Origin: Zygnema cylindricum
Taxonomy: Eukaryota > Streptophyta > Zygnematophyceae > Zygnematales > Zygnemataceae
DNA length: 58,795 bases
Direction: 5' to 3'
Assembly (NCBI GenBank): GCA_037447655.1
Contig: JBBHKE010001824.1
Span: forward strand, 1 to 58,795
The notes under the pieces were generated by a model that saw only the letters and a list, made by a program, of their open reading frames with translations, was not told the origin of the DNA and did not search any database. Within the stretch, counting starts at the first letter, position 1. Every line of letters starts with the position of its first letter. The position numbers were made by a program, and so were the translations under genes. Below, in pieces: positions 5,497-54,860 of the stretch.

Positions 5497-8400
5497 ATAA
5501 AGAAAAAAAATAAGCAACAAGCAAGAAGGAAAGGAAAGAAGAAGAAAGAAGCAAAGGAGGAAGAGGAAGAGGATGGAGGAGGGAGGAAAGAAGGAGGAAT
5601 AAAGAATGGGGGAATAATAAGTAAGAAATAAGAAGAACAAGAATAAGAACTAAGAATTAAGAACGAAGCAAACAAAGAAGAAAAAGGAAAGGAGGAAGGA
5701 AGAAGAAGAAGAAAGAGAAAGAAGAAGTGAAAGGAGAAACGATAGAAAAAAAAAATTGAAGAACAAAAAAAAAAAAATAGTGAAAGAAAGAAGAAGGGAG
5801 AAAGATGCAAGAATGAAAGAGGAAAAGGGAGGAGGAGGAGGAGGAGGAAAGGAGGAGAAAGACAAAGGAAGGAAGAAGATGGGAAGGACAAAAGAATAAA
5901 AATAAGGAATAAAAGAAGGAAGAAAGAAGAAGGAGAAGGAAAATGGAGAAGGAAAAAGGAAAAAGGAAGAAGGAATATGAGAAAAAATGGAATCCGAATA
6001 GGACAAAAAAAGAAGTTGAAGAAGTAAGCAATGCAAAAAAACAAGAATGAGAATAATGAAAAAAATAAAAAAAGATGACGTAAAAGAAGAACAAAGAAAA
6101 AGAAGAAAAAGACGAACGAAAAAAAATAAGAAAGTAGAACAAAGAAAGAAGCAAAGAGGAGGAGGGAGGAGGAGGGGGAAGAGGAAGGGGGAAAAGGAAC
6201 AGGGAAGAAGGAAAAAGGAACGGGATTAGGAAAAGCACAAGCATAAGAAGAATGAAATTAAAAAAACAAGAACAATAATGAAGAATGAAGAATTAAGATC
6301 TTGTTAAAAAACGAAGAAGAAGAAGAAAACGAAGAAGAAGAAGAAAACGAAGAAGAAGAAGAAAACGAAGAAGAAGAAGAAGAAGAAGAAGAAGAAGAAG
6401 AAGGAAGAAGGAAGAAGAAGAGGGAGGAAGAAGAAGGAAGAAGGAAGAAGGAAGAAGAAGGAAGAAGCAGAAGGAAGAAGAAGGAAGAAGAAGAAGGAAG
6501 AAGAAGAAGGAAGAAGAAGGAAGAAGAAGAAGAAAGAAGCAAGAAGAAGAAGAAGGAAGAAGAAGAAGAAGAATAAGAAAAAGGAAGAAGAAGAAGAAGA
6601 AGAAGAAGAAGAAGAAAGAAGAAAAAGAAGAAAGAAGCAAGAAGAAGATTGAAGAAGAAGGAAGAAGAAGAACGGAAGAAGAAGGAAGCAGCAAGAAGAA
6701 GGAAGAAGAAAAAAAAAAAAAAAAAGAGGGATTAAGAAGAAGAAAAAGAAGAAAAAGAACAAGAAGAAGAAGGAAGAAGAAAGGAGAAAGGAAAAGGAAG
6801 AAGAAGAAGAAGGAAGAAGAAGGAAGAAGAAAAAGAAGAAAAAAAAAAGAAGAAAAAAGAAAAAGAAGTAGAAGAAGGAAGAAGAAAAAGAAGAAGAAGG
6901 AAGAAGGAAGAAGGAAGAAGGAAGAAAAGAGAAGAAGAAGAAAGATGAAGGATTAAGAAGAAGGAAGAAGTAAGGAGGAAGAAGAAAGAAGTGAGAAGAA
7001 AGAAAAAAGGAAGACGGAAGAAGATGAAGAAGAAGAAAGATGAAGAACAAGGAAGAAGAAGAAAGAAGAACAAGGAAGAAGCAAGAAAGTAGAAGAAACA
7101 AGTAGGAAGAAGAAGAGGAAGAAGAAGGAAGAAAAAGAAGAAGGAAGAAGAAGAAGAAGAAAAAGAAAGAAGAAGAAGCAAGAAGAAAAAGGAAGCAAGA
7201 AGGAAGAAGAACAAAGAAGAGGAAGAAAAAGAAGGAAGAAGAAGGAAGAAGAGGAAGAAAGAATAAGAAAAAAAAAGAAGAAGAGAAAAGAAGAAGGAAG
7301 AAAAAAAAAAAAAAAAAAAAGAGGGATTAAGAAGAAGAAAAAGAAGAAAAAGAACAAGAAGAAGAAGGAAGAAGAAAGGAGAAAGGAAAAGGAAGAAGAA
7401 GAAGAAGGAAGAAGAAGGAAGAAGAAAAAGAAGAAAAAAAAAAGAAGAAAAAAGAAAAAGAAGTAGAAGAAGGAAGAAGAAAAAGAAGAAGAAGGAAGAA
7501 GGAAGAAGGAAGAAAAGAGAAGAAGAAGAAAGATGAAGGATTAAGGATTAAGAAGAAGGAAGAAGGAGGAAGAAGAAAGAAGAGGAAGGAAGAAGAAAGA
7601 AAAAAAGGAAGAAGGAAGAAGATGAAGAAGAAGAAAGATGAAGAACAAGGAAGAAGAAGAAAAAAGCACAAAGAAGAAGAACAAGGAAAGAAGAAGAAGA
7701 AGGAAGAAGCAAGAAAGTAGAAGAAACAAGTAGGAAGAAGAAGAGGAAGAAGAAGGAAGAAAAAGAAGAAGGAAGAAGAAGAAAGAAAAAGAAGAGGAAG
7801 AAAAAAAGGAAGAAGAAGGAATAGTTAAGAAGAAAGAAAAGAAAAAGAAGAAGAGAGTGAACAAGGAAAAAAAAAAAAAAAAAAAAAGAAAAGGAGGAAG
7901 AAGAAAGAAAAGGAAGAAAGAAAAAAGAAGAAAACAGAAGGAGACAAAAAATAAGGAAGAAGGAACAAGGAAGAAGAGGAAGAAAGAAAATTGAAAAAAG
8001 GAAGAAGAAGAAGAAAAAAGAAAGAGGGAGGGAGGGAGAGGGAGAGGGAGAGGGAGAGGGAGAGGGAGGCAGGGAGGGCAGGAAGGAGGGAAAAAATGAT
8101 GAGAAGGAGAACGAAGGAAGAAAAAGAAGAAACGCGCGAAAAAAAAATGAATTCAAAAAACTAAACGAACTACTGATTGTGTATTGACACAATCGTTGAA
8201 ATGACATGGAAGAAGAAGAAGATGAAGGAGGAGCAGGAAGAGGGGAAGAAGAAGGATTATTTATAATAATCCGAAGAAGAAGGAGAAGAAGAAGAAGGAC
8301 TATAACAATAATAAGAAGAAAATTTATTATTAAGAATAATAATAGAAAGGAGAAGAAGAAGAATTATAATAATAATAATAAGAAGAAGAAGAAAAGGAAG

Positions 8401-22040: not shown

Positions 22041-22725
22041 CATAGTTCAAAAGTAGGTGACCGTACGCCCATACAATATGCCTATTGTACGCAAAACATA
22101 CAATATGCCCTTAAGACCCATATTGTATTGGCCGCAAAATGAAATAAAATAGGAACAGGGTTGAGTTGCACATCGATCGATAGAGAATTAAACGACATGT
22201 CTAAATTTTGAAAAAAAATAGGACAAAAAAAATTATTTCTGTGAATTTTGAGAGACTTTTTATTTAAACCGTCAAATTTGGACGATCGGACGGTCGCTGA
22301 TCAAAATAGGCGATTTAAAAAGATCACATGAAAAGCCCATAACACAACTTACGAAATGACAATCTGTCATATTAGCGTCTGCAATTTTGAGGGCCACACT
22401 AAATAAAGCCTCAAATTGACCAACCACGCAGTATGGGCCGATAAAATAAAATAAAATATAACACTGCCAAAAAAATTACCAAAACCTACGGACCAACCCC
22501 GTTGGTGGCTTTTCCCTCGGAATGTCATCCTACGCCGTGTCAGTTCGCTAAAAAATTTCGTCCGGCGGCGTGCGCTGTACTTTGATCTTACGCCAGATTC
22601 GGACGTTCGTACAGGAGTGTGCACGACACACACACATACAGTATGCCTACGTTGCGCGAGTTTTGTGCAAAGTTTTGTGCGCCTACCAAAGGCCTACCAT
22701 AAAAAAAACCTACTTTTGAACTATG
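22041..22725. mobile_element. hAT-like MITE, copy 1, with internal insertion
   Basis: Inverted ends CATAGTTCAAAAGTAGG / CCTACTTTTGAACTATG and a perfect 8-bp target duplication CTTTAATC (22033-22040, 22726-22733). Eight-base duplications with CA...TG ends indicate the hAT superfamily. Compared with the 54-kb copy it is inverted and carries about 300 bp of extra sequence from about 22350. Confidence 0.8.
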
Positions 22726-28548: not shown

Positions 28549-28621
28549 GAGCTGGTGGCACAGTGGTTAGTGCGCTAACAGCTCAAGTCAGAGGCCCCAG
28601 GTTCAAGCCCTGGTCGGCTCA
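28549..28621 (+). tRNA. tRNA-like sequence (Glu CTC by position), possible SINE head
   Basis: Folds as a 73-nt cloverleaf: acceptor GAGCTGG/TCGGCTC (with wobbles), D stem GCAC/GTGC, anticodon stem CTAAC/GTCAG with one A-C mismatch, T arm CCAGG TTCAAGC CCTGG, discriminator A, then TTTT within six bases. By position the anticodon is CTC, but base 33 is G instead of the near-invariant U. A tRNA pseudogene or SINE head is more likely than a working gene. Confidence 0.6.
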
Positions 28622-29150
28622 GTTTTCGCTAGTATGGGACATAGCGAATCCCGGATTTCACGGAAATCGACATTAGAAAACTTGTATGAGAATATGTTAG
28701 CTCGTGTTATAACTTTGTTTAACATTTTGCAGCAGGTAGAGGTGAAAGTGATAGAGTAGTCATTTTGTGCGATTTGTTCTAGATAAAGATTGAAAGTGTG
28801 GGATTGACGCTATGCCACATGTTGGGTTTCCTTGATATGAACAAGAAAACCAACAAGGTAAGTGACGAAGGTCCCAGGTTCAAGCCCTGGCCGGCTCACT
28901 TTTCCTTAGTATGGGACATACCGAATCCCGGATTTCACGGAAATCAACATTAGAAAATTTGTATGAGAATATGTTAGCTCGTGTTATAACTTTGTTCACA
29001 CATTTTGTAGTAGGGAGAGGTGAAAGTGCTAGAGTTGTCATTTTGTGCGATTTGTTTTGGATGGAGATTGAAAGTGTGGGATTGACGCCATGCCACATGT
29101 TGGGTTTCCTTAATATGAACAAGAAAACCAACAAGGTAAGTGACGAAATT
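28596..29150 (+). repeat. two tandem 277-bp units starting in the T arm of the tRNA-like sequence
   Basis: Units start at 28596 and 28873 and are about 90% identical. Each has the tRNA 3' half, then GTATGGGACATA, and ends at AAACCAACAAGGTAAGTGACG, which resembles a 5' splice site. The second unit keeps an 81-codon ORF (28911-29156) that the first has lost to stops. Whether it is coding is unclear. Confidence 0.75.
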
Positions 29151-38866: not shown

Positions 38867-39616
38867 ACTCAATTTTTGATCAAGTAAAGAAGACAATATT
38901 AGCGTCAAAGGCACAATTGTGCAGTTTTGAACGTTTATCTCTTTACTACAGATTCGCTCTCTCATGCTGAATTTTAAAGAAGCTTGTTTTATTCTCTTAG
39001 TCAATGAAATCATCCTATTCGAGATTTTTTAAATGTTTTTATTCGAAAATTTCAACTTTTTGCCTCCCGATCTCCAACCAAAAACTGCAAAAGTGTGCAC
39101 CTTTGTTAAGGGCGATCCCATCTCTCTAAAATATTATTTTTAAACGTCAAAACAATTTAGAGGGTGATAACACCACGGGTTTAATATCGGCGACAAGATG
39201 TGCTACCATAGCGCCAAACGTGAGTTTTATTGTAATATGCCGCTAAAGATGATTTTTACTAAGATGCATACAATTGGAGAATGATAAAAAGTCCCCAACA
39301 CACACCCCAATATGGACGCTCAATTTTTTCATTTGTACTTACGATAATTATCACTTATTTTGCATTTTTTATGTCCATAAAATGTTTATGACGCCACTAC
39401 AGCATTGTACCGTATTTGATTTTGGAAAGCCTAAAATGTTGACGTTAGAATTACAAAAGTAAATAGTGTTGAAATTAAAAAATCAAGGCTTAATGTCTAA
39501 AATTGCATCCTACTTAGTATTACTATTTGCTTGTAGTTAGCAATAACCTTAGTTATTCACAATTATTAACGAATATCATATCCTTAGGTTTACAACCCCT
39601 ATTGAATAGAAAACTA

Positions 39617-40143
39617 CACCGTGAATCGTTTTTGAAGTTAATAATATTGATTCGGCGCCCTTGAATTTTGACCCTCAAAACTAAAATAGAATTAATAATA
39701 TATCTATGCTAGTATATGTATTGTTTAATTGACCACTCTAATTTGGATTGTTTTAAAATAGTTTAGTTTATTAAATGTGTTTGCCCGCACTAAAACGGCT
39801 CGTGATGTTGTACACACGTACAATAGAAGTGTCGGATCGTTGACACCAAGTGAGTGAGTTGACATGTGAAAGCACAACCATGTTTGATTCTTAGTAATAA
39901 AGCAGGGGGGTAATCTTGCGAACCGGTTCTCACATGTTCAAACATTGACTATGTGAACAAAGTATATATCGGTTTTGTTATAGGAACGTGTATCCAAATT
40001 AGTGCTAGGTGTACAAATTAGCGTTAACTTTCGTTGGGGTTATGCCCTTAAACCTAGAATAGAGTTAATCACACTGTTTTTTTCTTTACTCTTATAATTT
40101 GTGTACTTAAACAATTTCTTTACATTAATAGCGATTCACGGTG
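39617..40143. mobile_element. Tc1/mariner-like MITE, CACCGTGAATCG family
   Basis: 527 bp from CACCGTGAATCG to CGATTCACGGTG, with TA at both sides (39615-39616, 40144-40145). TA duplication indicates Tc1/mariner-type insertion. No ORF. Confidence 0.75.
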
Positions 40144-40658
40144 TATTCACGGTGTTGAATTAGCAATTTATTGAATTAAGGAGGGTCATAATTTATATTC
40201 TGGGCCTTGGCGTAGCTATTGAATTATGAAGGTTTTTGAAATAGGCAGTATTGTTTCAGAGAGGTTGTACTCTACTGTAATGCTTAAGGGCATAACCAAG
40301 GTTTCCAATCGCTTAGGAATTCCAATTCAAAATCTGATGTTGTGATTTTCAACCCTTTCCGGCAAAATATAAAATATGTACTATAAGTGCAATATTCGCA
40401 CTATGCAAATTTTGATCGTTTCGTACATTTGATGATCGCACACAAAATTTCTCTTAGAACCACGTCCGTACCGCATCACATCACGCCAATGTTGGCCCGG
40501 GTTCAGATCCCAAAGCGTGCAAATGTTTCCTATCCGTACTCTACCGTACGGTACTTCTGTTTTTTTCACCCGTCCATACTGCGAAAGCATGTGTGGCCGG
40601 CGATTGGTAGTTTTACAATCAAGTAATAATAATTATAAAGTCGGCGTGTACGCCGTCG

Positions 40659-40975
40659 GCGCGCTTGGTGCAGTGGTAGCACACCGTCTGCCGGCCACAC
40701 TAACCGCCGGATAATCGGCTACTCCCGCGATACGCGGGAGATTCTGCAGTATCTGCAGAAAAATCTTCCGCAATGTGGAAGCAGACTCCACAATAATTGG
40801 TGGAGGACATCCTCACTCCCACTGTGGTAAATGGTCAATCGGAAAATTCTGATTGGCGAACTGTCAGGACAAAGATCCTGACGTTCTCAAGCTGAGCGAA
40901 GCTTAGCAGCCGGCAATGTTCCGGTTGGGGCGGGGCCATTAGATGGAGACCTGGGTTCGAACCCCAGAGCGCGCA
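40659..40975 (+). tRNA. tRNA-Gly-like gene with 253-nt hairpin-array insertion (copy A)
   Basis: Acceptor GCGCGCT/AGCGCGC is perfect, D arm GTGC AGTGGTA GCAC, anticodon stem CCGTC (40684-40688) / GATGG (40942-40946), variable AGAC, T arm CTGGG TTCGAAC CCCAG, discriminator A, then CTTTTT as Pol III terminator. The A and B boxes are intact. TG8-9, AGTGGTA, A26, AGAC and CTGCC match plant tRNA-Gly(GCC). The anticodon loop is replaced by 253 nt holding about eight hairpins in series, including CTCCCGCG/CGCGGGAG, TTCTGCAG/CTGCAGAA, GTCAGGA/TCCTGAC and GCTGAGC-GAA-GCTTAGC. It ends in GGTTGGGGCGGGGCC. Ordinary nuclear tRNA introns are much shorter. Confidence 0.75.
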
Positions 40976-41981
40976 CTTTTTATTAACTTATATATTTTCG
41001 ATCTTTTTACCGACCTTTTTTTTTCGTGGAAAAGAAATGAATGTTGACGTCCAAGGCGCAGTTGTTTAGTTGCATAGTTGTCCTATTCGTACGGATTTCG
41101 ACTTTTTTCCGAAAACTACGTAGTATTCGTTACCTTCATACCGTTCGTTAGTTTTCGCTGTACGATGTACGAAAACGTACGAAAACCGTCCCCTTAACCC
41201 TAAAAAATTGCTTGACTCCTAGCTAGATAGCCGTGTCCTGCAACAGGCTTATGCCGGGTTTTGGCAACAGGCTTTCGTAGTCGTCCAGAAGCTTCCAGCT
41301 AGGGTTTTTTTACCATCTCTTTGTGTATCCGGCGTCAAATTTGGCGTACAGGTACTTAAAAAAAACGTATTTTCAAAAACCTTTCTATTGGCTAGCAAAA
41401 CATTTCCATCCGCTCTCCCGTTTTCCATTAATCGAGTCTGCAAGTTTCGGCCGATTTCATTCTAACTTTTGTACCCTATAAATCTCAAAATAATAACCGT
41501 CAAAAGTACGAAAAATACGGAAATTGTATGTAGATGTACGAATAATAGTTGGCTGTTTAACATAAATATTTGAGAACGCACGAGAATGTACCCTAAAACT
41601 CCTCAAACCCCCTAAAATTAGTAAGGCATCAAGATTACGTACGATCAGCTCGTATTGGAGGGAATTTTTTTTTGATGACACTTTTCCAAAAGCTTTAGTC
41701 GTAATTTCCTCTTAAGGTTTTTTCTCATTTTCTTCAAGTGTCTGGCGCCAAATTTGGCGTGCAGATACTCTACAGAGAGTATTTTCAAAGGCCTTCCTAT
41801 TCGTGGGCGAATCAGCTCCATCCGTTCTCTAGTCTTTTTGTAATCGCTTCTCCCAATTTCGGCCGATTTCCTTTTTCCTTTTCTCGGCCGCAAGTTTTTT
41901 CGACTATCTTCCTTTTGTCACCCAAGGAGCCTGTTTTATTTCCTTTTTTACTTTACCTACTCAGGCCCACCAAGGAGAGCT

Positions 41982-42317
41982 TTGCGGGCGGATTTTACCC
42001 TTCCACCCAGAACACTCCACCGAAGGGAGCTTTCCGAGAGAATTGTGCACTACCACCAAGCGCGCAGCAACACAAGCGCTCGCCATCCACTGACTCTTGC
42101 TCTTATGGCCCCTCACAAACGGCGTGCGTCACGTTCCCCGTCGCCGTCTACTTCGGATCACGCGCGGCCACGTTTGATCACCGCAGATGAGACCCTTAAT
42201 CCTTTGCTGTCCACCTCCCAGGGCACCACTCTCCCCCTCCCCACTGTAGAATTACCCCCACCCACGGTTCCCTCCATCATTCCCAACCCTTGCACAGACC
42301 CATGTGGGGTTGAACAT
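41982..42317 (+). pseudogene. retroelement N-terminal region, interrupted
   Basis: A Pro/Ser/Thr-rich reading frame (LTLALMAPHKRRASRSPSPS; TTLPLPTVELPPPTVPSIIP) is cut at 42317 by the TRIM-like insertion. The last 144 bp are repeated after the insertion, where the same frame continues to 43275 and stops at TAG. Confidence 0.6.
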
Positions 42318-42377
42318 GTTGAAGATCAGCGATATTCTACATATCGCATGGGCGCCAAAGTGAAAACTTTGGTTAAA

Positions 42378-42450
42378 TGGCCAAGCCGGGGATCGAACCC
42401 GGGACCTTGTGTTAGCCGTACACTAGCTCTACCAACTGAGCTACCCGGCC
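42378..42450 (-). tRNA. tRNA-like sequence in LTR, copy 1
   Basis: 73-nt cloverleaf: acceptor GGCCGGG/CTTGGCC, D arm GCTC AGTTGGTA GAGC, anticodon stem AGTGT/ACACA with one A-A mismatch, loop ACGGCTA, T arm CCGGG TTCGATC CCCGG, discriminator A. Base 33 is C, not U, which argues against decoding. A and B boxes are intact. Confidence 0.65.
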
Positions 42451-42685
42451 GATTGTGCATGCAAGCGCCTGAAACCGAATTTACGGCAATGAACGGCGCA
42501 CTGGCGGACCAGCATTTACTGCGATACACACGTGTGGAGTCCGAAGTGGACATTCCTCCAACACGCCCCCTCACGATGTACTCCATCTCGTGTGGCTTGC
42601 CAACGCCCCCTTGCTCCGATACCATGTTGAAGATCGGCGATATTCTACATATCGCATGGGCGCCAAAGTGAAAACTTTGGTTAAA

Positions 42686-42758
42686 TGGCCAAGCCGGGGA
42701 TCGAACCCGGGACCTTGTGTTAGACATACACTAGCTCTACCAACTGAGCTACCCGGCC
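42686..42758 (-). tRNA. tRNA-like sequence in LTR, copy 2
   Basis: Same cloverleaf as the neighbouring copies with loop ATGTCTA: U33 is present and the anticodon would read GUC (Asp). The most canonical of the three. Confidence 0.65.
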
Positions 42759-42993
42759 GATTGTGCATGCAAGCGCCTGAAACCGAATTTACGGCAATTA
42801 ACGGCGCACTGGCGTAGCCAGCATTACCGCGATACACACGTGTGGAGTCCGAAGTGGACATTCCTCCAACGCGCCCCCTCACGATGTACTCCATCTCGTG
42901 TGGCTTGCCAACGCCCCCTTGCTCCGATACCATGTTGAAGATCGGCGATATTCTACATATCGCATGGGCGCCAAAGTGAAAACTTTGGTTAAA

Positions 42994-43066
42994 TGGCCAA
43001 GCCAGGGATCGAACCCGGGACCTTGTGTTAGTCGTACACGAGCTCTACCAACTCAGCTACCCAGCC
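42994..43066 (-). tRNA. tRNA-like sequence in LTR, copy 3
   Basis: Loop ACGACTA (C33, positional GAC) and acceptor GGCTGGG; the D stem GCTG/GAGC has one weakened pair. The retroelement sequence resumes within a few bases of its 5' end. Confidence 0.6.
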
Positions 43067-43212
43067 GATTGATCACCGCAGATGAGACCCTTAATCCTTT
43101 GCTGTCCACCTCCCAGGGCACCACTCTCCCCCTCCCCACTGTAGAATTACCCCCACCCACGGTTCCCTCCATCATTCCCAACCCTTGCACAGACCCATGT
43201 GGGGTTGAACAT

Positions 43213-44523
43213 CCCCCTGATATCACACCAACAATACCTTTTACAAACCCTATTTCATCCCCACCTTTAAGCAAATAGCCTCCCCCTCCCATTGTTGCCC
43301 CTTACCGTCCACCCCATTTTCAAGAGCATTCTCCACCTTGGCATCCCATCCCTCTTTCTCAACCACCTTCGTTGCCTCCACTATCAAATATTGGTCCAAC
43401 TAGGGTGCCTTGTCCCCAGTGTGGAAGGCTATATGTGGCGGGTGGCGGTTTGTCGAGGCATTTGAAGTCATGTTCTTTTACTCCTAAAGGCATCCCGCCC
43501 CCCGACAAGGGCCAGCCTTCTCCACCAATTGTTCGTCAACAACCATCTCCTGCTGATTGGCAATATGTTCGTCGTCTCGACGTTCTAGGGTGTTATCACT
43601 TGGGTTATCCACGCCCTCGATTGTACACTCGTATCCCAAGCAATCTTCGTGATTCTGTCCAAACGGCTCTTCGACTTCCTTTAGCATTATTGGCTGAGGA
43701 CATCGCCAACGACGCGGCATGGCACTTACTACTCCTATTTCCTCTTTGGGCTTTGGTTTTGCCAACAAGGGGGGGTGCAAGCGGGGCTCGTGAGACGAAG
43801 GCTCGTTGCCAACGATTTTTGAGGGGAGATTGGGAGTCATTGCAACAGGAGCACACGGATCGTGTCATAGGTCTTTCCATGTCCCCTCCTAAGCGTCATG
43901 CCCCACTTCCAGGCTCCACAGCGAGATTACATCGGGCGGTCCACCTTGGTCGTTCTGGAGAGTTTTCTCGAGCTGCTCGTGCGCTTCGACCCTTAACCCC
44001 GTCTCCGTCATCAGTGGCAACAGTTGAAGCTTTGCGTTTGCTCCATCCTCCTGCCCGTGACGAGATCCTTTCTTTCGTTGAGGTGCATGATCCACTCGAG
44101 TCTTTCGACTTAGAGCAAGACGCATTTACAAAAGCATTAGTTCGGTCTCCTCATCTTTCGGCGGGAGGCCCATCTGGCATGGTTTATGAACTCTTACGAG
44201 ATGTATTTCCTCGTGAGACCCCCTCTCAAAGTTTTGGCCTTCTCTTTAAAGTGGCTTCTTTAAAGTGGCTTCTGGGGTGGCTCGAGGGGACGTCCCTCAC
44301 CATGTTATACCACTTCTTTCTGCAGCACGTCTCGTTGCTGTTTCCAAACCAGCTGGCGGCATTCGTCCTATTGCTATGGGAGAGGTTTTGTACCGATTCG
44401 TGGCTCGTGCAATGTGTATTCAACTTCAAGGGGCCTTCCATGACCACTTTACACCGCACCAGTTTGGAGTCGCTCCCAAGGGGGGTTGTGAGGCAGTTGT
44501 TCATGGCCTTCGGGCTCTTCTAG
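43213..44523 (+). pseudogene. retroelement zinc finger and N-terminal reverse transcriptase region
   Basis: After the in-frame TAG at 43276-43278 the same frame stays open from about 43279 to 44523. A C2HC finger reads CPQCGRLYVAGGGLSRHLKS plus C (C-x2-C, H, C) at about 43411-43475, like the nucleic-acid-binding fingers of R2-type proteins. A pre-RT region follows. A 14-bp tandem duplication (TTTAAAGTGGCTTC twice, about 44247-44274) shifts the frame just before the RT core, so sequence after it in this frame is not the true product. Confidence 0.75.
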
Positions 44524-45767
44524 ACCTCCATCCGGACAGGGTGGTCCATCAAGTGGATGTTGCCAACGCATTTAACACGGTTAGTCGTAATGCTATCTTT
44601 CGAGAATTAAGGCATGCTCCATCGCCGATTAACCAGATTTTTCCTTTTGTGCGTGCCTTTTATTCTCGTCCAAGCCCCCTCATCTTTCCTCTTGGCGGTC
44701 CCTTTGGTGATGTTGCCACTTTAGAATCTGCGACTGGCACTCGCCAGGGTGATCCTTTAGGGGCACCCCTCTTTGCGTTGGCTCACCTTCAGGCATTGCG
44801 GGACTCTGCTGCGGCTTTTCCAAGTTGTTTATTCCCTTCGATTGCGGATGATACGCATATTGTCGGTCCCCGTGACCAAGTTTTGACTGCCTTCACACAT
44901 TTTGCATAGCAACTTTGTAAGATCGGTTTATCAGTAAAGCCATCTAAATGTGTAGCGTGGTGCCCCCAAGGCTTACCTTCCGACTACCTCGTCCCTATGG
45001 GTTTTCGAATCGCGTCTTCAACAGAGGGAATTAAAACTGTAAGATCTCCTATTGGCACCCCATCGTTTGTGAACCAGGTTGTTAGTGATGCTTTATTGGA
45101 GGACCTCTCGCACTCGGATGACCTTCCTAAGCTCTCCGACTCCCAAGTGGCTTTCGCAATGCTCACTCGTTGTTTTGCTCAACGTTCTCTTTATCTTGCC
45201 CGAACTGTCCCACCAACGCCCTCATTTTTGTCATCTCTTAAGGACTTCGACGACAAACTTTTTAGCGTACTCCACCACCTCGTTGGGCATGGGATTTTTG
45301 ATCGGCCAGAGGGCTCGTTTGCTCGCCAACAAGCAAGTCTCCCTATTTCGAATGGCGACTTAGGTTTGATTCCCGTGGTTAGAGTTGCTTTGGCGGCATA
45401 TTTGGGTAGTTGGGCTTTAGTGGCACCTACCATCACCTCTCGATTTATCGTCGATGACGTTCCAATCCTGGCCCTAGTTGTCCCTAAGGTGGCGGAAAAC
45501 CTTTTTCCTTTTCATGAGACTCTTCTCACCGCGCGTGCACTCCTCCCATCTGATGCACGAAACGAGGTTCCACCATTTCCAACTCTTATTTCCGACAACA
45601 ACTTTCATCTCCAACAACGTTTAGCTGAGCAATTGGCAGTCGCTGAATTCCATAACCTTTTAAACGCGCTACCTTCTGCTCAATCGCGTGCTAGACTGCG
45701 TTCGTGTTCTGGGCCGGGGGCTGGTGCTTGGTTGCAAGCCATGCCGATTTTTCAACACTTCGTCTGA
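44265..45767 (+). pseudogene. retroelement reverse transcriptase core, with in-frame stop
   Basis: RNA-templated DNA synthesis domain. Visible motifs: GGIRPIAMGEVLYR, HQFGVAPKGGCEAVVH, VHQVDVANAFNTVSRNAIF (motif A Asp), TGTRQGDPLGAPLFALAHLQ (motif B) and FPSIADDTHIVG (motif C, ADD). An in-frame TAG at 44907-44909 splits the frame, which continues to 45767 as a thumb/linker region. That stop is one C-to-T change from CAG. The catalytic Asp residues remain, but the protein cannot be made whole. Confidence 0.8.
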
Positions 45768-45769
45768 CG

Positions 45770-46492
45770 TTTGACCAGTTCACATTTGCCGTACGTTTTC
45801 GTTTGGGTTTGCCTCACCCTGCGCTTCTTGGGTGACCCCATTGTGTTTGTAACCAACCTATCGACTCGGACGGGATTCATCTACTCAGTTGCTCTAGGGG
45901 CGGTGAACGTACTGTTGCGCATGATTTGGTTCGCGACTCAATTGCTGCATTTGGCACCGACGCAAGCTACACCGTGAGGCGCGAAGTTTCTCATGTACTA
46001 CCTCCTCACTCCTAGTCTAATGGCCTTCGAAGTCCTCGAGTTGACTTGGTTTTCCTCCATGGGGCTGGGAGGACTTTGGGTGATGTGGTCCTCACGGATC
46101 CGACTGGGACCCACGTTTCTTCTCGCGCGGCGATACATACAGGTGTGGCGGCTCGGGACGCAGCAACTTTTAAAGAAAGAGATTACGCTCATCGAGACCC
46201 GGCGGACCAATTTGTGCCATTTGCCGCAGAAATTTTCGGTATTTTGGACAAGTCTTTTGATGATTTCCTCCGCAACTGTGCGAAGAAGACATTTGAGTCT
46301 TGCGGTCCGGGGATCCCTCCCCCAAGCCTTCTTGTTTCGTTTTACCGTCAACGAGTTTCAATAGCTCTTCAACGGGCGCAAGCCGCGGCCCTTCTGCGGC
46401 GGAGCACAGTGGCGGATGACAGGCGGGGCCTCCCAGATCTTCCACCAAGGGATCCAATCCACATCCACAATCTTCGAGGGTGTGGAGTTTAG
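45770..46492 (+). pseudogene. retroelement zinc knuckle and restriction-like endonuclease region
   Basis: In a third frame: FDQFTFAVRFRLGLPHPALL, a knuckle C-V-C...GIHLLSC, then RVDLVFLHGAGRTLGDVVLT and ATFKERDYAHRD, FVPFAAEIFGIL. This is the D...(E/Q)-x-K-like layout with following FVP-F-E-G seen in REL endonuclease domains. Two in-frame stops (TGA at about 45827, TAG at about 46017) are each one C-to-T step from CGA and CAG. The final open frame 46046-46492 ends NLRGCGV. Confidence 0.65.
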
Positions 46493-48132
46493 TTTGTTAG
46501 GGTTGTGTAGTTTTTCCCTTTGTATAATGTCATCTTTAGTAAACTTGCTTAGTTTTGGCAGTTATTCTAAGTAGATTTGGTGGCTTCACATGTTTTCTTT
46601 ACCTTTGTTTTCTTTGGCTATTTTTTAGCATTAAGCGTTTATTTTCCTTTTTTGAACCCTTTTGTACCTTGATGGATTTTTCCATCGCTCTTTTTGAAAT
46701 TAAGAACACATTTTTTAGCCCGTAGTTCTCCGATTGGCGTTCTCCAATCGCAAACTGCACACGTGTGCCGCCCGCTTTGTTAGGCGCAAACCTGCCGCTC
46801 GCGTCCTTCCTTGGCGCCGAACATGACGCTCAAGGCGAACCGTCGATTCAATTCTGAGGGTGATTCCACCCCGCGGTTGGCGTCGACGGCAAGATGTGCG
46901 ACGCAGCACCAAAGGAAGCCATCTGTGCCTCGATTTGGACCGTACAAATATAGTGCGATTTATTAAAAGAAGCAGCTAGAGATTATTTTTAGAAGGACGC
47001 TTAAAATACGAATATGACAAGGAGCGCCCCCCGCAAACAACGCAAACAACTCAGTATGGAAGGTAAAGTTAGTCATCTGAATTTGGAATAATTGTTTTAT
47101 GTTATGCATTTCTTATGTCAATAACCTTTTTATGACGCCACTATCGTGCTTTACCTATTAAATTTTGGAAAACCAACCGTGTTAGCGTCAATGTTACGGA
47201 AATAATTAGTGTTGAAATTAAACAATAAAGGGTTAGGGTGCATCCCCATGTAATCGTAACTTACAAAACTTATTTTGTATTGTAGCAAAGATTTTCACTA
47301 CACATTTTTCAAGTGACTCAATGCACAAAAACGAAATTTGTAATTAACTTTGTGACGATTGTATGAGGCCACAATGTTTTTGATAGTTGTAAACATTTAG
47401 ATTTTAAGTTAGCGCACCGTAATTTTTGAAACTGCTTGTGACGTCGCATGTCTTTGCGTGACATTGTAGAGGTACAGCCTTCTAGCCTTTTGCTATTCAT
47501 GATTGAAGAAGATACACGCTTGTCGGATTGTGGATTTGACGGTTGCGATTGAAAATTAAGATTCTCGGCTTCCAATTGGCGGTCTTAAATTGAAAATTGG
47601 ACAAGAGTGTACGGAGTAAAGATGTTTTAAGTGGCAAAAAAAAACATTAACACTAAATGGCGATTCACGGTGTATTGAGTTTTTGAATTCATCATTGGCG
47701 AGATGGCATGGTCAAACAAATGAGAGAGATTTCTCCTATGCATAAATGTTTCAAAATTTTATGACACGAACAAAAAGAAAGTTATATTCGTCGCTAACCA
47801 ATTAGTTTTAAGAAAATCATATTGGAGTCTTTCATCACGACTTCAAACAATCCACTTCCAATAGGATATTTATGTAACCATGCCACTTCCAATAATGTTT
47901 CGAAGGTTGATGGCCACAATTTATTAACTTGTCCTTGTCACCTAGGTATCTTTTCAAACACGAGAAAAAATAGGATTTCTTTAGTGGAGTTATTTATTTT
48001 ACCTTTTACCGCCTCTACTATCAACCAAACCTCCAAAAGAAGGAACTTGCTGAAGACGATGTCTATGCACTTGTACGGCTAGTCATGAGTTTGACCATAT
48101 AATAGACCAAGGTTGTTTGTTGTTCTATTTTT

Positions 48133-48168
<36 letters not shown>

Positions 48169-48262
48169 TTTTATTCTATTTATTTATTTATTATTTATTT
48201 ATTTATTTTTCCACCACGGATAAAGTTTCAAAACGAGCCAACACGAGCCACAATGGAGTGTC

Positions 48263-48376
48263 AGTTGGCCAAAAAGAGAAATATGACAAACTAGTACATT
48301 TTAAGTTTCATTATGACGCAAGTTGGCCAAAAAGAGAAATATGACAAACTAGTACATTTTAAGTTTCATTATGACG
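48263..48376. repeat. 56-57 bp tandem duplication
   Basis: GTTGGCCAAAAAGAGAAATA and about 37 further bases occur twice in succession. A diverged single copy is at about 50433. Confidence 0.9.
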
Positions 48377-49298
48377 CGAATTGTCCTGTAGTTTTTAAAA
48401 AAAATTATGTACGACATAAAATTTTCTAGTTGAAGGCTTTGTGTTGGAGGAAAAAGACAAAAAAAAATCTTACTTTAACACATGGAAACGTACTAATGTT
48501 TTACATTGCATGCCACTAAGTATTATTATTTCCATGTAGTTAATCTCCACCGTTGTTGTCCACAATAATTATCGAACATCATCTCTTTAGGCTTAAACCC
48601 CTATTGAATAGAGAAATTCACAGTAAATCAGTACATCGCCAATCGTTGTTAGTGTCAAAGTTTAATTAGTGTTGAGAAAAAATTATCGTTATTAATGCTA
48701 ATTAGGGATTTGAAATTAAAAAAAAAGAAGTGTATTCTAATTTTGGCGTTAATGCTAATTTGGGAGTTGCAAAAAAAGGAATAATCGCCGTACAATTGTA
48801 TACATTAATATATGTATCCGTACAAAATATTAGAAATCGTACGCTGTCGCAAAATTTAAATATCTGTGCATGTCAGACTAATTCACGGCAGTTAAGCGAC
48901 CAGATTGAATCCCGTTTTTAGAGCGCACGTTCCTATGCGTGCGCGTCTGATTTAATTTATTTTTTGTAAATTTTTACTTGAAAAGGTGCATTTATGTACT
49001 GTCTGACATCGACCGTACAACATATTATTTAGATATTATTGTACTTTCATCCTTTACGCTGTTTTGTAATGTACCTTAATTAACGTAAAGGAAAAATTAA
49101 AATCATGTATACTATTTAAAAAAAAACCAAAATTTCAGGAACCCAAATTAGAGTTCTATACTCTAATAACGATTCGCGGTGTACATGTAATTTTGAGCCC
49201 CTAAATTTTGATCCTCAAACCCAAAATAGAATCGATAACATTATTTTTTTCTTTACTCCAATAATTTATTTACTCTGATGGCAATTCAAATTGTACAC

Positions 49299-49449
49299 TA
49301 GAACCTCTCTAAAATAATACTATTGGGAGCGAGGGTTGGTATTTAATTATAAAGGGTCATAATTTACAAAGGGCCCAAGCTCTGGCCCGGACTCAGATAT
49401 TGAATTTGGATTTTATTAAATTAGGCATTATTGTATAAGAGAGGTTCTA
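49299..49449. mobile_element. 151-bp MITE with TAGAACCTCTCT ends
   Basis: Inverted ends TAGAACCTCTCT / AGAGAGGTTCTA, with TA possibly part of the target duplication. A similarly sized relative is at 50849-50999 and remnants lie near 40245 and 53005. Confidence 0.7.
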
Positions 49450-49929
49450 TTGTGCTGTAATGTTCAAGTGCATAACCAGGCTGCCAATCATTCAGGGTTT
49501 CAAATTCAAAATCTGATGTTGTGATTTTCAACCCATTCCGGCAAAATGTAAAATGTGTACTATAAGTGCAATATTCGCACTATGCTAATTTTGATCGTTT
49601 CGTACATTTGCTAAGTGCACAAAAAATTACACTTAGAACCACGTCCGTACCGCATCACATCACGCCAATGTCGGCCCGGGTTCGGATCCCAAAGCGTGCA
49701 AATGTTTTCTATCCGTACTCTACCGTACGGTATTTCTGTCTTTTTCGCCCGTCCATAATCCGAAAGCATGCCTGGCCGTCGATTGGTAATTTTAAAATCA
49801 AGCAATAAAATATATAAAGTCGGTACTAAAGTTTTTTTTGCCCGTTTATACTCCGGAAGCATGCCCAGCCGTCGATTGGCAGTTTTAGACTATATATGAA
49901 TAATATTAAAGTCGTCGTGCATGCCATCG

Positions 49930-50156
49930 GCGCGCTTAGTGTAGTCGTAACACACCGTCTGCCGGCGGCACAATCCGCCGGATCGCAGTACCCCCCGTGC
50001 TGACGCGGGGGGTTCTGCAATACTGCAGACAGTTAGCGATAACCGTCAGGACGAAGATCGTGACGATCGAGATCCTGACGATCGCTAGCGGCCGGCATGT
50101 TCCGGTTGGGGCGGGGCCAGAAGATGGGGACCTGGGATCGAACCCCAGAGTGCGCA
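49930..50156 (+). tRNA. tRNA-Gly-like gene with 163-nt hairpin-array insertion (copy B)
   Basis: Acceptor GCGCGCT/AGTGCGC (one wobble), D stem GTGT/ACAC (a compensated change from GTGC/GCAC), anticodon stem CCGTC/GATGG, variable GGAC, T arm CTGGG ATCGAAC CCCAG, A, then CTTTTTT. The insertion (49960-50122) has CCGGCGG/CCGCCGG, a 10-bp ACCCCCCGTG/CGCGGGGGGT stem, TCTGCA/TGCAGA, and nested TAGCGAT/ATCGCTA around GTCAGGA/TCCTGAC. It ends in the shared GGTTGGGGCGGGGCC. It lacks several hairpins of copy A. Confidence 0.75.
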
Positions 50157-50848
50157 CTTTTTTACATTTTCATTTTCGATCTTTTCTAGTAACCCTTTTT
50201 GTCGTGGAAAGGAAAAAGCATGTACGAGAAAAACTAGGATTTCTTTAGTGGAGTCAGTATAAGTTTATAACATCCCTCCACTGTCGACCAAACCTCCAAA
50301 AGAAAGAAAGAACTTGCCAAATGGAAGCAGAGGGACAGGGATGCCATGGGTTTGACCACAGACTGGACAGAAGGTTGTTCGCGGGGCTTCCACCAGTAAT
50401 AAAGTTTGAAAAAGAGCAGGAATGACGTGACAGTTGGTCGAAAAGACAAAGACGACAAACTAATATATTCTAAGTTTCAAGATGACACAAACTCCATATT
50501 TTACATTTTTTTTGTATGACAGAAAATTTTCTAGATAAATGCTCTATTTTGGAGGAAAAGGACAAAAAAGAATCCTTACTAAAACGCATGGGAAAGTACC
50601 CTTAATGTCACAAATTCCATGCCACTTAGTATTACTATTTGCATGTAGTTAATCTTGATCGTTATTGTCCACAATAATTATCGAATATCATCTCCTTAGG
50701 CTTAAACCCTCATTGAATAGAGAACTACACCGTAAATTGTTGTTAGTTTTGAGGCCCAAATTTTTTCCCCTCAAACCTAAGATACAATTAATTACCTTTT
50801 TTTTTCTTTTACTCCAATAATGTATTTATAGAGATTCATGGTGTGCAG

Positions 50849-50999
50849 TAGAACCTCTCTTAAAGAATACTCTTGGGAGCGAGGGTTGGTATTGAAATAT
50901 GAAGAGTCATAATTTACAAAGGGTCCAAGCTCAAACCCGAGCGTTTGTATTGAATATGAAGATTATTAAATAATGCATTATTGATTGAGTGATGTTCTA
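50849..50999. mobile_element. 151-bp MITE with TAGAACCTCTCT end
   Basis: Same length and internal GGGAGCGAGGGTTGGTATT as the copy at 49299; the right end has decayed to GTGATGTTCTA. Confidence 0.65.
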
Positions 51000-51334
51000 T
51001 TGTACCAAAGTATTTAATGGCATAACCAAGCTACCAATCACTTAGGAATCTGATGATGTGATTTTCAACCCATTCAAGCAAAATGTAAAACATTTACTAT
51101 AAGTTTAATATTTGCACTATGCTAATTTTGATCGTGTTTTACATATAATGCATCGTAAAACGCAAATGTTGGCCAAGGTTCGCATCCCAAAGCGTACGAG
51201 TGTTTTCTATACTTACTCTACGATACGTTACTTTTGTTTTTTTGCCCGTCCATACTCCGAAAGCATTCCCGATCGTCAATTGGCCATTTTGAACTAAATT
51301 AAAAAATATTAAAAAATCATTGTATACGTCGTCT

Positions 51335-51644
51335 GCGGACTTGGTGCATTGGTAGCACACCGTCTCGTCGGCGACACAATTTGTTGGAAATCGGTTGCTC
51401 TTGCGATGTGGGAGATTTCGCAAGATCTGTAGAAAAAATCTTCCCTCATGGGAAAGATTTAGACGCAATGGTACAAACATCCTCACTTCAACGGTGATCG
51501 ATGGTCAATCATAAAATTATGATTGGCAAACTGTCAAGACGTTGTTCTTGACGTCCTCAAGCTAGCAAAGCTAGCGACTTGCACTGTTGTAGTTGGCTCT
51601 GGGCCGAAAAGATGAAGAATTGTGTTTGAACCCTAAAGTGTGCA
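51335..51644 (+). tRNA. decayed tRNA-like gene with 246-nt insertion (copy C)
   Basis: Same architecture as copies A, B and D, but worn: acceptor GCGGACT/AGTGTGC has one mismatch, the T arm TTGTG TTTGAAC CCTAA is weakened, and the 3' half of the anticodon stem is GATGA. D arm GTGC/GCAC and the trailing T run remain. Most differences from A are C-to-T or G-to-A. Confidence 0.65.
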
Positions 51645-52423
51645 ATTTTTTACTTTTCATGTTCCATCTTTTCTCCAACCTTTTTTTTTTCGAAAAGAAG
51701 AGAATATTAACGTCCAAGGCACAGTTGTGCAGTTTTGAACGCTTATCTCTTTACCACGGATTCACTCTCTCATGTTGAATTTCAAAGAAGCTTGTTTTAT
51801 TCTATTATCCAACGAAATCATCCGATTCGAGATTTTTTTTAATTTTCCGATTCAAAAATTTCAACCTTTAGCCCGCTGGTATCCAATCAAAAACCGCAAA
51901 AGTGTGCACCTTTATTAAGGGCGATTCCGCCTCTCTAAAATATTGTTTTTAAACATCAATACAATTTAGAGGGTGATAACATCACCAGTTTAATATCGCC
52001 AACAAGATGTGCTACCATAGCGTGAAGCGCGAGTTTTATTGTAATAGGCCGCTAAATATTACTTTTACTAAAATGCGTACAACGGGAGTATGATAGTAAT
52101 TCCCAAACACACACCCCAATATGGACGCTCAATTTCGTCATTTGTACTTACGATAATTATAGCTAATTTGCATTTTTTATGTCTATAAAATGTTTATGAG
52201 GCCACTTACCGTAATGTAACGTATTCGATTTTGGAAGGCCTAAAGTGTTGACGTTAAATTAAAAAAAAAAATAGTGTTAAAATTAAAAATCAAGGCTTAA
52301 TGTCTAAAATTGCATGCCACTTAGTATTAGTATTTGCTTGTAGTTAGTCATTACCTTATTTATCCACAATAATGAATGAATATCATCTCCTTTGGTTTAC
52401 AACCCCTATTGAATAGAAAACTA

Positions 52424-52868
52424 CATCGTGAATCGTTATTAGTGTTAATATTACTTATTCGGCGCCCTTGAATTTTGACCCTCAAAACTAAAATACATAT
52501 AATAATATGTTTACGCTAATATAGGTACTGTTCAATTGATCACTCTAATTTGGATTGTTATAAAATAGTTTAGTGTATAAAATGTGTTTGTTCGCACTAA
52601 AACTGCTCGTGATGTTATACACACATATAGAAGAAGTGTCGGATAACGATGTTGACACCAAGTGAGTGAGTTGACATGTGAAAGCGCACCCATGTTTGAT
52701 TCTTAATAATAAAGACGGGGGATAATCTTGCGAACCTTTAAATTAGCTTTAACTTGCATTGAAGTTATGCCCATAAACCTATAATAGAGTTAATCACAAT
52801 ATTTTTTTCTTTACTCTAATAATTTCTTTACTCTAACAATTTCTTTACATTAATAGCGATTCACAGTG
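52424..52868. mobile_element. Tc1/mariner-like MITE, CACCGTGAATCG family
   Basis: 445 bp, ends CATCGTGAATCGTTATTAG and AATAGCGATTCACAGTG, TA on both sides. Same position in unit 4 as 39617-40143 in unit 1, so it inserted before the units duplicated. Confidence 0.7.
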
Positions 52869-53418
52869 TATAGTGAGTGATGGTTGGTATAGAATTAGCA
52901 TGCTATTGAATTAAGACGGGTCATAATTTAAAAAGGGCCCATTCTGAGGCCTTGTCGTAGCTATTGAATATGAAGGGTTTTGAAATAGGCAATATTGTTT
53001 CAGAGAGGTTATAGTCTACTATAATGCTTAAGGGCATAACCAAGGTTTCCAATCATTTATGGTCTTTAATTCAAAATCTGATGCTATGATTTTCAACCCA
53101 TTCCGGTAAAATGTAAAATGTGTACTATAAGTGCAATATTTTCACTTCGCCAATTTTGATCCTTTCGTGCGGATAATATGCGCTCCCAAAACGGCACTTT
53201 AATTCCATATCCGTAATGCATCACAATACGGCGAAATCGGCTTGGGTTCGGATAACGAGAGAGTTCAAAACTTTTCTATTGTTACTGTACGGCACTGCCA
53301 TTCTACTTGTTTGGCCGTCCATACTCCAAAAGCATTCCCAGCCGTCGATTTCACCGATTCGAGTTAACTGTATATGTGTCATTAAATATAGTTTTTAAAT
53401 TCATAATTATTATCACTT

Positions 53419-53745
53419 GCGCGCTTGGTGCAGTGGTAGCACACCATTTTCCCGACGACACAAACCGTCGGATTTGTCGGTTGGGCTCCTAGCGCATCGC
53501 GGGCTAGAGAGTCGTGGGAGATTTTCCCCTGTAATTGGTGGAAGTTGGACTGTCGAAGAGATGGATCCACCCGGCCATGAAGGGCGATGGAATTTAATCA
53601 ATCAAAAGAAGCAATTTGATTGGTCACTGTGACAAGAATGATCTAACCGATCCTTGTCACGAGCATGGCAATGCTAGCCTTTCCGACAATCTGGTTGGGG
53701 CGGGGTCGGTAGATGGAGACCTGGGTTCGAACCCCAGAGCGCGCA
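53419..53745 (+). tRNA. tRNA-Gly-like gene with 263-nt hairpin-array insertion (copy D)
   Basis: Acceptor GCGCGCT/AGCGCGC perfect, D arm GTGC AGTGGTA GCAC, anticodon stem CCATT/GATGG, variable AGAC, T arm CTGGG TTCGAAC CCCAG, A, then CTTTG (weak terminator). The stem's left side differs from copy A at two bases yet still pairs fully with GATGG. The insertion has largely different sequence but again folds as a chain: CCGACG/CGTCGG, CTAGC/GCTAG, CAATCAAA/TTTGATTG, GTGACAAG/CTTGTCAC, AGCAT/ATGCT. It ends GGTTGGGGCGGGGTC. Confidence 0.75.
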
Positions 53746-53868
53746 CTTTGTCATTCATTAATTATGATATTTTTTTCGCGCCTTTTTTTTTCATGGAAAA
53801 GAAAAGATGTTTTTCGTACATCCGTACGTTGCTTTTAGACATAGCAACATAGTTGAGCAGTTGTGAAC

Positions 53869-54235
53869 CATAGTTCAAAAGTAGGCGTTTCTATTGTAGG
53901 CTTTTTGTAGGCGCCTTTATCTTAAGTTGTGATATGGGCTTTTCAATGTGATCTTCTTAAATCGCTACTTTGATCAGCGGCCGTCCGATCGTCCAAAATC
54001 TGACGGTTTAAATAAAAAATACCTCAAAACTCACGGAAAAATAAAAATTTGTCCGAATGTTTTTCAAAATTTAGACATGACGTTTAATTCTCTATCGATC
54101 GATGTGCAACTCAACCCTGTTAACTATTTTTTTTCATTTTGCGACCAATACAATATGGGTCTTAAGGTCATATTGTATGTTTTGCGTACAATAGGCATAT
54201 TGCATGGGCCTACTGTCACCTACTTTTGAACTATG
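53869..54235. mobile_element. hAT-like MITE, copy 3
   Basis: 367 bp, ends CATAGTTCAAAAGTAGG / CCTACTTTTGAACTATG, flanked by TTGTGAAC and TTTTGAAC (7 of 8 match). Its inside matches the 25-kb copy and the inverted 22-kb copy (GTTGTGATATGGGCTTTTC; GATCGATGTGCAACTCAACC). Confidence 0.8.
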
Positions 54236-54239
54236 TTTT

Positions 54240-54860
54240 GAACTCTCCAGATGTTCTGTAGATCTCTATGATATGTCTAGTACAGATTCGGTCTCTGATG
54301 TCGAATTTTCAAAGAACGTTGTTTTATAGTTCTCTTAGCCAATGAAATCATCCGATTCTAGGGTTTCAAACGTTTGAATTTGCCTGCAGGCGCTGTTGCA
54401 AGGAAAAACATCCGAAGAGTCAGAATGTTTCCTTGTACCCCAAAACCGTTTATAAGAGCGTTTTGACTGACTTTTCATTTCTTGATTTCTTCCCCTCTTC
54501 CCCTCCCCTTCCCTCTCTCCTTATCTTTTTATTCCTTTCTCCCTACCTCTACTTCTCCCTCTCCCTCTCTCGCTCTCTCCCTCCCCCTCTATTGGGATCC
54601 AAACCATTTGTGACATGCTCCGTGAATCGCCATTAGCGTCAGTAAAATCTATTTTAATCCGTTTTTTGCCCCCTGAACAAAAATAGCATCAACTGTATTT
54701 TCATACTATTTTTTGTAACACTAATTTGGTAACCAGTTGGAAACCTTACACGTCACTTAGACCTAAATCAGAATTGATGACATTGATTTAAATCCCATGT
54801 TAGGTTAAGCCACGCGTTTTGTTTCATAAACCAAACTATATTATATAAAATACAAAATAG

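Follow-up and report, generated by a model that had tools for sequence, protein, structure and literature searches.

Introduction

In synthetic tRNA-scaffold RNAs, a chosen RNA replaces the anticodon loop and the tRNA fold protects it. Among natural tRNA genes, predicted plant tRNA introns range from 3 to 261 bp, with a mean of 15 bp and 93% below 22 bp (PMC12652284); PMC11700998 describes long outliers up to 172 bp and, in Musa balbisiana, one tRNA-Gly gene that contains an intron. In the tRNA-miRNA-encoded RNAs (TMERs) of murine gammaherpesvirus 68, hairpins come after a tRNA-like 5' end and give microRNAs (miRNAs; PMC8223928). Here, we analyzed one contig of Zygnema cylindricum (assembly GCA_037447655.1, contig JBBHKE010001824.1, 58,795 nt, referred to as the window), which carries four tRNA-like elements with a long, hairpin-forming insert in the anticodon loop. 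They are numbered c1, c2, c3 and c4 along the + strand.

We consider it an even proposition that the four elements form a small, locally tandem family of RNA polymerase III (Pol III) genes, in which the tRNA shell provides the promoter and the ends for a fast-evolving structured RNA and is not a decoding tRNA. No described family of this build was found in Rfam or in the freely accessible literature, subscription papers and preprints lying outside the scope of the search.

Anatomy of the four elements

The acceptor, D, anticodon and T stems form a cloverleaf on the + strand in all four elements, with 21, 21, 18 and 21 of 21 pairs for c1–c4, and the discriminator A73 is present in 4/4 copies. 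The four cloverleaves proposed in an earlier note are thus confirmed. The anticodon loops are 253, 163, 246 and 263 nt in length, versus the usual 7 nt, in agreement with the inserts of 163–263 nt claimed there; the T-run said to lie directly behind three copies was found as T5, T6 and T6 behind c1, c2 and c3. The features are as follows.

40659..40975, + strand: c1, whole tRNA-like element, best preserved, 317 nt
40634..40639, + strand: TATAAA at −25 to −20 of c1, read directly
40666..40676, + strand: c1 A box TGGTGCAGTGG, perfect
40689..40941, + strand: c1 anticodon loop, 253 nt, 8 hairpins with stems of at least 6 bp
40691..40710, + strand: c1 first hairpin Ha; the corresponding site is occupied in all four copies
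40722..40740, + strand: c1 hairpin H1, 8 bp, from the fold
40742..40760, + strand: c1 hairpin H2, 8 bp, from the fold
40765..40781, + strand: c1 hairpin H3, 7 bp, from the fold
40834..40857, + strand: c1 hairpin H5, 10 bp, from the fold and cross-copy comparison
40863..40882, + strand: c1 hairpin H6, 7 bp, from the fold and cross-copy comparison
40891..40907, + strand: c1 hairpin H7, 7 bp, from the fold and cross-copy comparison
40923..40936, + strand: conserved GGTTGGGGCGGGGC at the insert 3' end of c1, from sequence comparison and the fold
40954..40964, + strand: c1 B box GGTTCGAACCC, perfect, 288 nt downstream of the A box
40977..40981, + strand: T5, Pol III-type terminator directly behind c1
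49930..50156, + strand: c2, 227 nt, with a shorter insert (163 nt) and altered A and B boxes
50158..50163, + strand: T6 terminator directly behind c2
51335..51644, + strand: c3, 310 nt, worn, A and B boxes altered
51646..51651, + strand: T6 terminator directly behind c3
53419..53745, + strand: c4, 327 nt, insert strongly diverged from c1
53597..53624, + strand: c4 hairpin H5, 10 bp, position matching c1 and c3, from the fold and cross-copy comparison
53770..53791, + strand: T7 and T9, earliest long T-runs behind c4

Both hallmarks of a type 2 Pol III gene are thus present, namely internal A and B boxes and a T-run terminator, the latter directly behind c1–c3. Scored against the general consensus, the boxes are perfect in c1 and c4, where they lie 288 and 298 nt apart, and altered in c2 and c3. 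The TATAAA of c1 appears to resemble the upstream element of many plant tRNA genes, and a second T-run (T9) lies behind c1 at 41016-41024. In the minimum-energy fold of c1, GGTTGGGGCGGGGC partly pairs with the 5' end of the insert. The longest stems in the folds are ∼10 bp.

The inserts fold beyond chance

The minimum free energy of each insert was compared with 200 dinucleotide shuffles per copy, and it lies below 200/200 shuffles in 4/4 copies, with z values of −8.55, −6.21, −4.37 and −3.22 for c1–c4. For the whole elements (40 shuffles each), the z values are −8.6, −5.5, −4.9 and −5.4. As controls we used eight flanks, which range from −1.9 to +1.3, and 20 background pieces with a minimum of −2.67; one of the latter (z −2.44) overlaps the start of c4. 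The free minimum-energy fold is identical to the cloverleaf-constrained fold in c1 and within 1.5 kcal/mol of it in c2 and c4.

Hairpins with stems of at least 6 bp number 8 in c1 (reached by 0/200 shuffles), 3 in c2 (8/200), 4 in c3 (3/200) and 3 in c4 (38/200). The hairpin number is therefore exceptional in c1 and raised in c2 and c3, whereas c4 is unusual in energy only. The idea that each copy is a hairpin series thus holds for the fold energy of all four, but the hairpin count of c4 is ordinary. When the changes between c1 and c3 were placed at random sites in c1, 4/300 simulations fold as well as c3; in the reverse simulation, from c3 to c1, 0/300 fold as well as c1.

Pairing in several stems is kept through sequence change

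Compensatory changes are present in several stems. Because RNAalifold misplaced two tRNA stems, the counts rest on helices matched by hand across the copies, with c1 as the source of the structure, a choice that gives this structure an advantage over the slid controls. Omitted from the counts, as not alignable across copies, are H2, H3 and H7, the hairpins in the middle and a large part of the c4 insert, and misaligned parts of H1 and H6 in c4 were scored as unpaired. In the four-copy alignment, 7/41 pairs carry double changes, a number reached by 3/500 shuffles, and 88.3% of the cells are paired versus 32–52% when slid. In the three-copy alignment, the corresponding values are 4/36 pairs (13/500 shuffles) and 97.2% versus 29–42%. 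Double changes affect D pair 4, T pair 1, acceptor pair 5, Ha pairs 4 and 7, H5 pairs 1 and 9, and H6 pair 5. H5, which c2 does not have, is paired at 10/10 positions in c1, c3 and c4, and its ninth pair differs in each of these copies, being G-C in c1, T-A in c3 and A-T in c4, all of them Watson-Crick pairs.

The earlier note had read the differences between stem halves as pairing kept. For the D stem this is a true double change, but those in the anticodon stem are one-sided (G-U to A-U, C-G to U-G).

Conserved halves and diverged inserts

The tRNA halves of c1 and c4 are identical at 63/65 positions, versus 158/239 in the adjacent flank (Fisher p 2.7e-8). For the same two copies the insert is identical at 122/241 positions, lower than the adjacent flank (p 4e-4). 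The insert also diverges faster than the flank between c1 and c2 (110/162 versus 319/358, p 1.2e-8). The halves of c2 and c4 are more alike than their upstream flank (56/65 versus 257/371, p 0.003), and those of c3 and c4 lean the same way (p 0.09). Gene conversion between copies may also have caused the likeness of the c1 and c4 halves, but it would need to spare the insert and the flank alike.

Between c1 and c2 (halves 58/65, flank 319/358, p 0.59) and between c1 and c3 (halves 53/65, flank 303/395, p 0.24), the halves show no excess over the flanks. Because these halves track their flanks, it is chiefly c1 and c4 that carry the reading of the tRNA as a scaffold, and c2 and c3 would be relaxing. 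On this reading, c1 and c4 are likely the working copies. We put forward only tentatively that purifying selection keeps the tRNA shell while a structured, non-decoding cargo in the anticodon arm diversifies fast, its hairpins being kept and their sequences replaced. Conserved halves together with inserts that outpace their flanks raise the question of diversifying selection or hairpin-driven mutation.

Possible relics or hairpins at the DNA level

The missing excess in these two comparisons weighs against a family of scaffolded RNA genes, and so do several further observations. Directly behind c4 there is only TTT, with T7 at 53770-53776 (25 nt on) and T9 at 53783-53791, and c3 is one decayed copy. 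The opposite strand folds about equally well relative to shuffles. The covariation term of RNAalifold for the four copies is only −0.56, with the anticodon and T stems misplaced. Among changed Watson-Crick pairs, the ratio of G-U to A-C is 11:5 from c1 to c3 and 6:8 from c3 to c1, so there is no consistent G-U excess; since such an excess is expected if the RNA strand is selected, its absence counts against selection at the RNA level.

Owing to the lack of a G-U bias and the similar folding of the other strand, the main rival has to be taken seriously: hairpin-forming DNA would have entered an old tRNA gene and the array would have been duplicated, leaving relics or DNA-level hairpins that have no product and that persist via template-switch correction or have simply not yet decayed. 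The worn state of c3 and the altered A and B boxes of c2 fit this account, as does the divergence of the inserts beyond their flanks (c1–c2 and c1–c4), which is expected of mutagenic hairpins. However, it leaves unexplained why the c1 and c4 halves are nearly identical amid strongly diverged surroundings and why both copies have perfect A and B boxes. We regard this account as fairly improbable.

Gene-finder searches and the question of decoding

With default settings, ARAGORN reports none of the four elements. When introns of up to 400 nt were allowed, at default thresholds and on both strands of 15.7 kb, it made five calls: c1, c4 and three ordinary-length tRNA-like genes at 42.4–43.1 kb. 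A long-intron search, which the earlier note had suggested with tRNAscan-SE, thus recovers c1 and c4 but not c2 and c3 when run with ARAGORN. Rfam, at both gathering and E-value thresholds, gave no match in the elements, its sole matches being four ordinary tRNA-like genes elsewhere; with group I introns included, the array has no Rfam match up to E 1.

The insert was then removed in eight splice registers per copy and the joined halves were submitted to tRNA calling. They were called as a tRNA in 8/8 registers for c1, c2 and c4 and in 0/8 for c3. The predicted anticodons vary with copy and register (Met or Arg for c1; Leu or Arg for c2; Pro, Arg or Gly for c4; none for c3), and T33 is not consistently placed across copies. 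Because no consistent anticodon is left, the elements are probably not decoding tRNAs with an intron.

This bears on the earlier proposal of tRNA genes with giant structured introns, from which the tRNA splicing endonuclease would yield a tRNA and a large intron RNA. The position of the insert in the anticodon loop and the long-intron calls of c1 and c4 speak for it, as does the upper end of the predicted plant introns, at 261 bp. However, the anticodons disagree between copies in each register, the placement of T33 is inconsistent, and predicted plant introns mostly stay below 22 bp (PMC12652284). The proposal has lost ground and we now hold it to be unlikely.

The assignment to tRNA-Gly is likewise left as a likeness to a plant tRNA-Gly, consisting of a variable loop of 4 nt, AGTGGTA as the D loop, and A73. 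A 21-nt stretch of the 5' half also occurs exactly in three bacterial tRNA-Gln genes among genome contigs. These were rejected as relatives, as a chance likeness among tRNAs. Exact patterns of the element gave 0 matches to viral contigs. Two further candidates were rejected: a telomerase RNA, as no insert contains a CCCTAAA-type repeat, and a group I intron, on the Rfam result above.

The tandem array and its surroundings

All four elements are part of one tandem array with homologous spacers, a point absent from the earlier note.

38886..54375, strand not assigned: tandem array, units of spacer plus element, from self-comparison

The units are ∼1.4–2.1 kb in length. A long interspersed nuclear element (LINE) and other insertions separate c1 from c2, and a further unit is represented by a stub at 54278-54375. 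Homology joins 38886-39924 to 51694-52736 (87%) and 40214-40644 to 49395-49823 (87%), and further pieces join all four units. Between the c1 and c4 units, the identity is mostly 82–93% up to 40398 and then 63–68% across the 240 nt before the element; the proximal part of c4 therefore derives from an older lineage.

LINE-like reverse transcriptase frames (RVT_1) lie at 43.3–46.5 kb, between c1 and c2. The best match of a LINE frame, and the sole named one among 11, is to Diphasiastrum complanatum (45%); RVT_1 and RVT_2 domains are found near the array. Such neighbours, together with the A and B boxes, would suit a mobile element of the tRNA-derived short interspersed nuclear element (SINE) kind, in which the tRNA promoter is used for retroposition. 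Against this, the copies have long homologous flanks on both sides, and therefore multiplied as parts of a larger duplicated unit. There is no 3' A-rich tail before the T-run, target-site duplications are not definable, and copies are not dispersed within the window: a profile search found no whole element outside the array, with weak partial matches only. We hold a SINE origin to be very unlikely.

Worn T-arm and acceptor-like stretches matching the 3' half of the elements occur at 40489-40529, 49668-49710 and 51166-51200 (profile E 0.014, 0.00095 and 0.52), ∼130–260 nt upstream of c1, c2 and c3, suggestive of an older tRNA-like unit formerly at these sites. The spacers show a weak likeness to the 5' tRNA half on the minus strand at 39220-39185 (E 0.0073) and 52031-51992 (E 0.036). 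A 93-bp tandem duplication lies directly upstream of c2 (49741-49914). On the minus strand at 42315-43071, just before the LINE frames, three tRNA-like genes with one body and the anticodons GGC, GTC and GAC sit in 308-bp tandem units.

Elsewhere in the window, a tRNA-Glu-like gene (CTC) at 28549-29147 has its T arm and the next 278 bp duplicated directly behind it (92% identity). A repeat present in inverted orientation at 22041-22354 and 53920-54235 (89.6%), near a CCATAGTTCAAAAGTAGG-like end, is probably a miniature inverted-repeat transposable element (MITE). The interval 6001-8000 has a strong one-strand purine bias (GC skew 0.86, AT skew 0.91). One putatively RBMX2-like exon matches proteins of Riccia sorocarpa (70%), Diphasiastrum (65%) and two further proteins; together with the LINE match, this makes a source among land plants or their close relatives likely.

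A putative tRNA-scaffolded RNA gene family

Of the two options offered in the earlier note, a Pol III-driven element that uses the tRNA as a scaffold is the one strengthened by the sequence, through the A and B boxes of c1 and c4, the conserved halves against diverged inserts, the T-runs and the stems kept. In such a gene, the A and B boxes of the tRNA shell would act as a Pol III promoter of type 2, internal to the gene; differences in A-B spacing are tolerated by TFIIIC (PMC4090602). The shell would also give a normal acceptor-T arm with A73 and, in c1–c3, the terminator. The ends may be trimmed as in a tRNA, by RNase P and RNase Z. The anticodon loop would become a cargo domain of 163–263 nt, made of local hairpins and closed by the partly conserved insert ends, and the gene would yield a stable, non-decoding RNA of ∼230–330 nt. 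Transcription, end processing and any cellular role are thus predictions.

If transcribed, the elements would parallel the engineered tRNA scaffold in nature: the tRNA would give promoter, end processing and stability to a large foldable domain that is free to vary. They would also be a gene class overlooked by standard annotation: since neither default ARAGORN nor Rfam reports any of the four, families of this kind could be widespread yet unseen in plant genomes.

Comparison with known systems

Group I introns in tRNA anticodon loops resemble the inserts in position and size range, but differ in that the array has no Rfam match at the level given above. TRNA-derived SINEs share the A and B boxes and the tRNA origin; different from them, the elements spread by tandem duplication, with no tail or target-site duplication defined. 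The closest engineered likeness is to the synthetic tRNA scaffolds, designed for expression in E. coli, whereas the present ones would be natural and eukaryotic. Like plant intron-containing nuclear tRNA genes, the elements combine a cloverleaf with A and B boxes, a T-run behind and additional sequence in the anticodon loop; however, this sequence is usually 10–20 nt in those genes (PMC12652284 and PMC11700998), versus 163–263 nt here, and the present elements are hairpin-rich and have no consistent anticodon. TMERs are alike in being a Pol III unit that combines a tRNA-like part with hairpins, transcription being predicted here. In a TMER, a complete tRNA-like part is followed by precursor-miRNA hairpins, whereas the hairpins of c1–c4 have short stems and lie inside the anticodon loop.

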